NCBI GenBank assembly: GCA_030618495.1 | Contig: JAUXDE010000109.1 | Location: 1-5,403 of the forward strand | DNA: 5,403 bases | Source: Clostridia bacterium | GTDB taxonomy: Bacteria; UBA6262; WVXT01; JAUXBS01 | Reading direction: 5' to 3' | In this document: positions 2,752-5,061 of the stretch, one piece after another | How the letters are laid out: each line of letters starts with the position of its first letter | Numbering within the stretch: the first letter of the stretch is position 1 | The notes under the pieces: generated by a model | What the model was told of the DNA's origin: nothing | Databases searched by the model: none | Seen by the model: only the letters and a program-made list of their open reading frames with translations | Program-made: the position numbers and the translations under genes

Positions 2752-3210
2752 TTATGATTTTTGCTTATAACGCGCCAGCCACTCCTTCACGAGTCCCCAG
2801 TGAGTTCCCTTCCAGTACACCCTGTCACAGTTAGCGCAAATATAGAAATTTTCCTGTGTCTGGAATACATAACTCGGCACCCTGCCCCTTGCCTTTTCCT
2901 TTTCAATGGGCTTTATTTCCATGTTGCAGACAAGGCACCTCGTGAACACCTTCTTGTATTCAATCTGCAGGTCCAGCTCTCTGAACAACTGACCCATTTG
3001 TTCTTCAATATAATCACTCTTAATCAGTATTCTCTTTATTGCTTTCTTCTTGCTTATCTTCGTGTCCCTGGTAAGTATTATCCTGCCTTCCTTCAGGCTT
3101 CTATAAATCAAGTCGCTCTTTTTCCCGGGAAGAAAATATTCGGCATCGTAACCGAGTAATCGGAGCCATTTGCACAAACGTCCAAGCATGAAATCAACAA
3201 GAAATTTCAT
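2752..3210 (-). CDS. Mut7-C RNase domain protein with zinc ribbon
   Basis: The 152-residue protein matches the Mut7-C family (formerly DUF82): a PIN-like nuclease fold fused to a zinc ribbon, named after the C-terminal part of nematode Mut-7. The N-terminus MKFLVDFMLGRLCKWLRLLGYD is diagnostic and carries Asp6. GRIILTRD at 42-49 gives the second acidic residue, Asp49. The zinc ribbon follows with RCLVCN (Cys92, Cys95), then VPSYVF, then YICANCDRVYWKGTHW (Cys125, Cys128). An RNase role is inferred from the fold; natural targets are unknown. I prefer the ATG at 3210 because family members start MKFLVD; a GTG at 3216 would add two residues. Neither has a clear Shine-Dalgarno sequence, unlike the next three genes. 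It is the first gene of the recX-queH-SpoIID operon and lies directly after a motA remnant, so the operon promoter is likely within 3211-3300, though I see no convincing boxes. Confidence 0.92.
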   Translation of the reverse strand: MKFLVDFMLGRLCKWLRLLGYDAEYFLPGKKSDLIYRSLKEGRIILTRDTKISKKKAIKRILIKSDYIEEQMGQLFRELDLQIEYKKVFTRCLVCNMEIKPIEKEKARGRVPSYVFQTQENFYICANCDRVYWKGTHWGLVKEWLARYKQKS

Positions 3211-3239
3211 TGACACAACACTTAATTATTGAACAGCTC

Positions 3240-3365
3240 TCAGGTATCTTTCTGCCTTCTCGTAACCGAGGTTAAAATGAACCGTAGCGTTCCGCCTCTT
3301 GAAAGGATACCGACTAATATCAGCCCAACTCAACTGATTGCGCCTATAATTATAGTTATATCCAT
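3240..3365 (-). pseudogene. motA: Truncated motA (flagellar stator protein) remnant
   Basis: A strong ribosome binding site (GGAGAGG) stands five bases before an ATG at 3365 that begins MDITIIIGAIS. This closely resembles the N-terminus of MotA, the inner-membrane proton-channel subunit of the flagellar motor. Codon 12 is then TGA (3330-3332). Past it the same frame continues VGLILVGILSRGGTLRF, again like the first MotA membrane helix and its GGG segment. Similarity then fades and the frame stops at 3240. The remaining ~220 residues of MotA are absent, and the next gene starts 30 bases later. The position downstream of flbD matches the common flagellar order flbD-motA-motB, which supports the call. 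A single change from GGA or TGG would explain the TGA; the missing body indicates a deletion. It is very unlikely to make a functional stator. The match is short, so certainty is moderate. Confidence 0.62.
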
Positions 3366-3383
3366 AGTTCCTCTCCGTTACTT

Positions 3384-3403
3384 TAGTGTGGTGTTTCTGA
3401 CAT
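3384..3403. repeat. Solo sequence resembling the MITE terminal repeat
   Basis: tagtgtggtgtttctgacat at 3384-3403 matches 17 of 20 bases of the left end of the MITE-like element (321-340, tagtgtagtgttactaacat). No second, inverted copy is found nearby, so this is a single diverged end. It lies between the flbD stop and the ribosome binding site of the motA remnant. It may be a scar from a lost or deleted insertion, or a shared short binding site. With only 20 bases and three differences, a chance match cannot be excluded. Confidence 0.45.
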
Positions 3404-3474
3404 CACCCTTCATTCCCCATTATTTTCTTGATTTTACCCTCGCTCAGTTCGTTTATTTTCTTTCCTGTACTCAA

Positions 3475-3627
3475 CTATTTTCCTACCACTTCCTTCACTG
3501 ACCTCTTAACAACGATTTTATTGCCGTTATACTTTGTAATAATGGTATCCGGCTTCGATTCGATTGATTCAATCAAATCATCATTTATCACAACTTCCTT
3601 GTTGTTTATGCGTCTTAAATAAACCAT
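3475..3627 (-). CDS. flbD: Flagellar protein FlbD (SwrD family)
   Basis: This 50-residue gene starts at the ATG at 3627 and ends with TAG at 3475-3477. It matches the small FlbD/SwrD family, usually 50-75 residues, encoded between the hook gene and motA in flagellar operons; SwrD in Bacillus is known to raise flagellar motor power. The diagnostic pattern is visible: MVYLRRINNKEVVIN at the start, DLIESIESKPDTIIT at about 17-31, then the YNGNKIVVKRSV strand and a short final helix. In-frame TAA and TGA codons occur upstream, fixing the ATG as the only reasonable start, yet there is no good Shine-Dalgarno sequence. A small AT-rich palindrome (3629-3640) sits where one should be. The gene lies 48 bases after tldD and 109 bases before the motA remnant, with no other flagellar gene in view. 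Family identity is strong; whether it is still expressed or useful is doubtful because its motor partner is broken. Confidence 0.85.
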   Translation of the reverse strand: MVYLRRINNKEVVINDDLIESIESKPDTIITKYNGNKIVVKRSVKEVVGK

Positions 3628-3675: not shown

Positions 3676-5061
3676 TTATCCTGTCCCACCCACCGTTATC
3701 ACGGGTATCCTCAATGTCGGCTGGGCATCTGCTACCGGGACACCCTGTCCGTCCTTGCCGCACGTTCCTATATTAAAACCCAGGTCATTGCCTACCATGT
3801 CAATGGATTCCAGTATTTCCGGGCCGTTGCCTATCAGTATCGCTCCCCTTACCAAGTCTCCTTTTTTACCGTTATTTATCTCGTAACTTTCCGAAACATC
3901 AAACACGAAGTTACCGTTTACGGTATCAACCTGCCCCCCACCCATCTTCTTCACGAAAAGCCCTTTTTTTACCGATTTAATTATTTCTCCGGGAGAATCT
4001 TTCCCGGGCAGAATGAGTGTATTGGTCATCCGGGGTATGGGCGCGTGCCTGTAGGACTGGCGCCTGCCGTTTGCCGTGGATTTGACTTTATCCCTGGTCG
4101 CCGTAAAATAATCATACATATAATTTTTTAAAATACCGTTTTCCACAAGAATGGTTCTTTCCGATGGGTTACCTTCATCATCATACATAAAGGACCCCCT
4201 TCTGCCGGGCAAGGTTGAATCATCAGCCACCGAAATAATTTCCGAGGAAACCTTCTTTCCGAGCTTACCCGCATAAGCGGGTGAAATACCCTTCTGAACG
4301 GCGTCAGCTTCCAGGCTATGGCCGATAGCTTCATGAATCATGGTTCCCCCGGCCTCCGAAGAGAGAACAACCATCATTTCCCCCGTAGGGGCGCTTTTAG
4401 CTTCAAGCATTTTAACCGCCCTGAAGGCAGCCTTTTGCGCAATCTCCCCAACGTTATTCTCATCAAACAGTTCAAAACCCGCCATTCCCCCTAACGTTTC
4501 ATAACTCGTTTGAACAATATTGCCCTTACCGGCAATAACCCTCACCATAAAAGTGGTATATACCTTTTGTTCATTAACAAAAGTCCCTTTTGAATTTATT
4601 AAGGTTGTATCCTTTACGGTATCAGCGTACACCACCAGCACCTGCCTTATCATGCTTGCGGATACGGCTCTTGCTGAACTGTTTGCCTTATTTACAATTT
4701 CCAGCTTCTTCTCAACAGGGACACTCCCGGGCAGTTTCAGCATCCCGGTTCCCCGGGCATTTATTTTTTCTGCGAAGTTTATCCTGCTACCGCCAGGATT
4801 ATTTAACTTTTTTCCCAATAGGTCCCGCGCAATGTCCTTTATCCCCCCGCAACCATTAACATCACTGGTGCTTCCGTACAGAATTTCTTCACCTTTTATT
4901 ATCCTCATGCCTGCGCCGCATTCCGAACCGGACACAACGTCCTCTATCCTGTTATCTTCGCATCTTATGTGAGATGATTGCGTGTTCTCAACATATATAT
5001 CGGCAAATTCCCCCTCTTTAGATATATCACTTACAATTTGTTTCAGTTCATCATCTTTCAT
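3676..5061 (-). CDS. tldD: TldD family zinc metallopeptidase
   Basis: The 461-residue protein is full length for TldD, the catalytic half of the TldD/TldE (PmbA) heterodimer. That complex degrades unfolded peptides in the cytoplasm and trims the leader of peptides such as microcin B17, and it is linked to CcdA antitoxin turnover. The active site is clear: GGTMIHEAIGHSLEAD contains HExxxH with His243, Glu244 and His248, and the C-terminal GTCGKDGQGVPV supplies the third metal ligand, Cys434. The closing TLRIPVITVGGTG is also typical. The N-terminal domain (1-200) shows the family's ADIYVENTQSS and GAGMRII segments. The ATG at 5061 has AAAGGA five bases upstream and overlaps the histidine kinase gene by 11 bases, so the two are likely co-transcribed. 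The TldE partner, which often lies next door, is not present downstream; flbD follows instead. It may be encoded elsewhere. Confidence 0.95.
   Translation of the reverse strand: MKDDELKQIVSDISKEGEFADIYVENTQSSHIRCEDNRIEDVVSGSECGAGMRIIKGEEILYGSTSDVNGCGGIKDIARDLLGKKLNNPGGSRINFAEKINARGTGMLKLPGSVPVEKKLEIVNKANSSARAVSASMIRQVLVVYADTVKDTTLINSKGTFVNEQKVYTTFMVRVIAGKGNIVQTSYETLGGMAGFELFDENNVGEIAQKAAFRAVKMLEAKSAPTGEMMVVLSSEAGGTMIHEAIGHSLEADAVQKGISPAYAGKLGKKVSSEIISVADDSTLPGRRGSFMYDDEGNPSERTILVENGILKNYMYDYFTATRDKVKSTANGRRQSYRHAPIPRMTNTLILPGKDSPGEIIKSVKKGLFVKKMGGGQVDTVNGNFVFDVSESYEINNGKKGDLVRGAILIGNGPEILESIDMVGNDLGFNIGTCGKDGQGVPVADAQPTLRIPVITVGGTG

Follow-up and report, generated by a model that had tools for sequence, protein, structure and literature searches.

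A probable remnant of an flbD-motA-motB stator operon in a genome that keeps a paralogous rotor-stator set

Genes and features of the locus

The window, that is, the whole stretch of DNA that was analysed, is 5,403 nucleotides long and makes up an entire contig (C73) of a draft genome of 1.69 Mb, 98% complete, in 179 contigs. Its genes all lie on the minus strand and comprise the end of a histidine kinase gene, tldD/pmbA, flbD, a Mut7-C domain gene, recX, queH, a SpoIID-domain gene and rubredoxin. A palindrome, GGACAGACACCTATT...AATAGGTGTCTGTCC, lies within positions 1-50 at the contig start. The features discussed below are:

3676-5061, minus strand: tldD/pmbA-like gene (PF19289, PF19290, PF01523), which now precedes flbD
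3475-3627, minus strand: flbD (FlbD/SwrD family, PF06289), truncated by a frameshift at residue 50
3434-3484, minus strand: the C-terminal end of flbD, shifted into the neighbouring frame, RKIVEYRKENKRTERG followed by TAA (three-frame translation, alignment to order-mates)
3384-3403, plus strand: solo end of a repeat family, 20 bases, between flbD and the motA relic (exact pattern match)
3291-3365, minus strand: motA remnant of about 25 codons counted from the start, the twelfth being TGA (3332-3330) (tblastn, shuffle test)
3240-3290, minus strand: the same motA frame continuing to a second TGA (3242-3240), with no detectable MotA similarity (translation, alignment, tblastn)
2752-3216, minus strand: Mut7-C domain gene (PF01927), which now follows the relic
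321-559, strand not assigned: nearly full repeat element with inverted ends, its 69-base arms 74% complementary, carrying the same motif as 3384-3403

The reading frame at 3627-3475 is a member of the FlbD family by its match to the PF06289 profile (E 3.5e-18; 65.4 bits against a curated cut-off of 24.7), and the genome has no other FlbD. A preliminary description of this DNA had recognized a 50-codon flbD gene, which is borne out, and had called it intact, which it is not. Three-frame translation and alignment to the FlbD proteins of order-mates, one of which is 46.7% identical over the first 60 positions, show that the frame is broken at about 3475-3484, in a short run of A, after 50 open codons. 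The C-terminal block sits in the next frame, where it reads KIVEYRKENKRTERG (KIVEYRKENKR), corresponding to KVIEYRRLVNQKR in order-mates (KVIEYRR in relatives), and ends in TAA at 3436-3434. The gene is thus a survivor, as had been suggested, but a damaged one. No ribosome binding site was evident to the eye in front of its start. A single-sequence structure model of low confidence (pLDDT 64) places four strands and one helix ahead of the break, and on this model the shortened protein might fold; no solved FlbD structure was found.

The motA relic begins with ATG at 3365 behind GGAGAGG, and its Shine-Dalgarno/start region is similar to that of relatives. Its frame reads MDITIIIGAIS*VGLILVGILSRGG; the FlbD-linked MotA proteins of order-mates start MDITTILGVVSGIGLIIIAIFMRMG. 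The start with its ribosome binding site and the stop at codon 12 had both been noted earlier, and both are present. Comparison of the stretch 3240-3365 with MotA proteins yielded a match to the MotA N-terminus by tblastn and by alignment. With the N-terminus of an order-mate MotA as tblastn query, positions 3365-3291 matched residues 1-25 with 52% identity (E 7.7e-4). In local alignments the fragment scored 67-70 against four MotA proteins of the FlbD-containing set, scores equalled by 0 of 2000 shuffles for each, compared with a weak score of 35 against the other MotA paralogue, reached by 81 and 100 of 2000 shuffles. A Pfam scan of the fragment alone gave no match, so that its recognition depended on intact relatives, and its DNA-level alignment to relatives was not significant against shuffles. 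The sequence behind flbD matches the N-terminus of MotA over 25 residues. Loss of the rest of the gene had been placed after about 30 codons; the loss is confirmed, but detectable similarity ends at about codon 25. The PF01618 proton-channel domain was found in no open frame on the window contig and in three elsewhere in the genome. Behind the relic motB is absent, and the Mut7-C gene begins at 3216. Recoding of TGA was considered and rejected: TGA terminates RecX, SpoIID, the histidine kinase and two genes on contig C88, and the motA frame is in any case cut short.

The displaced flbD stop lies 68 bases from the motA start, compared with 32-39 bases in order-mates. No partner was found near the repeat end at 3384-3403. 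The repeat-end pattern, of which none is expected in the shuffled window, was matched at 50 genomic sites, whereas a reversed-pattern control gave 0. The family ends, TAGTGTRGTGTTNCTRACAT, are often paired in inverted orientation some 215-270 bases apart, and the roughly 50 sites include 321-559; the family resembles a small non-autonomous mobile element of which many copies are partial. Another repeat copy, L103, seemed to match the relic region over a greater length, but this match fell within the range of shuffles and was discarded.

Upstream of Mut7-C, adjacent or within about 1.1 kb and in the same orientation, ligA is found in five related loci (L005-L009) as well as in the genus-mate (G001). 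In the window the relic occupies the place of ligA in this neighbourhood, and Mut7-C, recX and queH downstream are intact and ordered as in the genus-mate. The tldD/pmbA-like gene neighbours flbD in the window but not in order-mates. Given that the relic takes the place of ligA, and given the repeat end and the 68-base gap, rearrangement and repeat insertion are plausible causes of the present arrangement.

Intact rotor-stator sets in related genomes

The comparison set consisted of six genomes of a small phylum, the window's own included, from two families. The flbD-motA-motB genes are intact in G002, G003 and G004; in G005 a contig opens with an intact motA-motB pair, its first base lying just before motA. 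The conserved order on which the preliminary description relied thus holds in sister genomes, with motA-motB intact in four order-mates and flbD leading in three. MotB carries a plug and an OmpA-type peptidoglycan-binding domain. A FliF_C-FliG fusion gene and a long coiled-coil gene lie upstream of flbD-motA-motB in G003, and the same two genes, in the same order, end another contig in G004. In what follows, set A denotes a FliF_C-FliG fusion, MotA and MotB together with FlbD, and set B the paralogous set that lacks FlbD.

Set B in order-mates consists of FliF_C-FliG, MotA, MotB and a further MotB, with no FlbD beside it. The genome of the window has a whole set B on contig C88, with a FliF_C-FliG of 553 aa, in which FliG_C and FliG_M are fused to FliF_C, a MotA of 255 aa and two MotB. 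The flagellar rotor component FliG and the stator proteins MotA and MotB are therefore present in this genome. The C88 MotA is 70-72% identical to that of set B in order-mates and 40-41% to that of set A, and no second set-A MotA or MotB was found in this 98% complete genome. Relocation of motA was rejected on the same comparison, as the only other MotA in the genome is the set-B paralogue.

The surroundings of the intact sets were also surveyed. On C88, positions 7040-19991 (L051) hold a large surface protein of fibronectin type with a weakly matched secretion tail, a PorV/UPF0164-like protein and the full set B; the second MotB is followed by a dCache-HAMP histidine kinase and response regulators. 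Two paralogous FliF_C-FliG/MotA/MotB sets are found in G003 and G004 (L053 on C55 of G003, L090 on C34 of G003, L091, L092, and L054 of G004). The order-mate set with FlbD also has a coiled-coil protein of 1121 residues, and PorV-like TPR proteins and large surface proteins lie near the sets. Elsewhere in the window's genome, contig C31 (L089, 2-1150) encodes a FliG-domain protein clipped by the contig start, followed by hydrogenase-type genes and no stator genes. Its pairwise identities of 32-36% give no clear assignment to set A or set B, and it is perhaps a remnant of set A or a component of a third set.

Are these motors flagellar? The export gate proteins FlhA and FliP were each found in 0 of the 6 phylum genomes, and flagellin was not found in the window's genome; four flagellated control genomes were positive for each. 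The locus is therefore not a record of recent flagellar loss, and the earlier suggestion that flagellar motility had lately been lost or relocated is not upheld. A search for other flagellar genes and for a second motA, which that suggestion invited, was answered in part: FlhA, FliP and flagellin were not found, and an intact MotA is present but is the set-B paralogue. The motors are apparently non-flagellar, judging by three absent marker families, of which flagellin was examined in the window's genome only. The neighbourhood of the intact sets includes outer-membrane proteins of PorV-like/UPF0164 type and large surface proteins that bear secretion tails, several of them weak matches: the PorV-like protein (E 9.3e-6) and Por_Secre_tail (E 1e-4) are below their cut-offs, and CHU_C was matched at E 3.4e-10 in an order-mate. 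These neighbours suggest a link with surface proteins that are moved or secreted. Outside the phylum, a weak FliG_C match (L083, E 2.4e-4) in an Omnitrophota MAG (that of L027), in which no FliP was found, is possibly a related non-flagellar rotor protein.

Decay of the locus and alternative explanations

It is likely that 3240-3627 is the pseudogenised remnant of an flbD-motA-motB stator operon belonging to one of two paralogous, apparently non-flagellar motors. A flagellar history, in which motility was recently lost or moved elsewhere and flbD was left as an intact orphan, would suit the fact that flbD and motA are flagellar gene families whose order is kept. It is very improbable, given that FlhA and FliP are absent from all six genomes, even where the operon is intact, that no flagellin was found here, that the MotA elsewhere in the genome is an old paralogue and that FlbD is frameshifted. 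That a short frame unrelated to motA, hydrophobic at its start, resembles it by chance might be argued from a match of only 25 hydrophobic residues that gives no Pfam hit and no DNA alignment above shuffles. That explanation is hardly credible, as the match begins at residue 1 directly behind FlbD and is specific to FlbD-linked MotA, with scores of 67-70 and 0 of 2000 shuffles as against 35 for the other paralogue.

The lesions might also be errors of sequencing or assembly, the operon itself being intact: the genome is a draft in 179 contigs, a sequencing error could explain the flbD frameshift, which falls in a short A run, repeats like the present element often break assemblies, and an intact set-A motA-motB could lie in the missing 2% of the genome. 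Such an artefact is nevertheless improbable: it would have to account for three separate lesions of different kinds and a missing motB, in front of intact Mut7-C, recX and queH genes in the order of the genus-mate, and with no other MotA or MotB of set A found in a genome that is 98% complete. Another possibility is that only motA and motB decayed and that the truncated FlbD still works, being kept for set B. Its 50 conserved-core codons are open, in the low-confidence model four strands and one helix precede the break, and it is the sole FlbD of the genome. This is unlikely, because the conserved C-terminal block has been lost by frameshift and no ribosome binding site is evident; set B does without FlbD in order-mates too, so that FlbD may be unneeded.

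Under the favoured explanation, that of a decayed stator operon, MotA and MotB would originally have formed an ion-driven stator turning the FliF_C-FliG fusion rotor, with FlbD (SwrD) raising stator power in set A. Set A would then have been broken by rearrangement together with small lesions: flbD would have been frameshifted, motA interrupted by a stop at codon 12 and deprived of its remaining part, motB deleted entirely, and a repeat end placed between flbD and motA. The point lesions may have arisen before or after the rearrangement and repeat insertion, and any order given to the lesions is presumptive. Set B would still supply a complete FliF_C-FliG, MotA, MotB and MotB. Set A is here reduced to the relic and perhaps the orphan FliG piece on C31. 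That the motor works, and what it drives, is inferred.

By itself the relic is a case of ordinary gene decay; the interesting part is the intact motor sets. It appears that a small uncultured phylum keeps two rotor/stator sets while lacking the export machinery needed to build a flagellum. This bears on whether rotor and stator together can serve as a surface motor in their own right, and on the way in which flagellar modules are assembled or dismantled in evolution. The intact loci may specify a surface motor whose design is new, in which MotAB, joined by FlbD in one set, turns a FliF_C-FliG rotor; it would operate without an export apparatus, be linked to PorV-like outer-membrane proteins and large CTD-tailed surface proteins and serve perhaps for gliding or for moving surface adhesins; the order would then have two paralogous motors, of which the window shows one being lost. 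This is a serious but tentative proposal, to which we incline rather less than to its denial. The window itself holds a broken member of flagellar stator families.

Comparison with known systems

FlbD corresponds to SwrD of Bacillus subtilis, which is reported to make the flagellar motor more powerful (Hall et al., 2018, as cited in PMC9195833), and this link of FlbD/SwrD to the stator accounts for its position beside motA. The order-mates share the gene families and gene order of flagellar flbD-motA-motB, including a MotB with plug and OmpA-type domain. They differ in that the rotor is a FliF_C-FliG fusion and that neither export gate genes nor flagellin were found, and the window differs further in having only a clipped flbD and 25 motA codons.

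Stator-type motors serve gliding or secretion without flagella in Myxococcus (AglRS) and Flavobacterium (GldLM) (PMC12505986; PMC8986121). The likeness lies in a predicted ion-driven two-protein motor in cells apparently without flagella, and perhaps in the PorV-like and CTD-tailed surface proteins beside the motor genes of the order. In contrast to AglRS and GldLM, for which a FliG rotor is not described in these two papers, a FliG rotor protein accompanies the stator here, and MotA and MotB are of the flagellar type. No account of a FliG-MotAB motor of the present kind without flagella was found in the openly licensed literature, which is weak evidence of novelty.

Flagellar genes are also left over in the non-flagellated bacterium Lysobacter enzymogenes (PMC9927559), and the retention of flagellar-type genes without flagella is common to both cases. 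Here, however, two whole rotor-stator sets are kept across the order and only the copy in the window is decaying; their retention argues for use rather than for leftovers.
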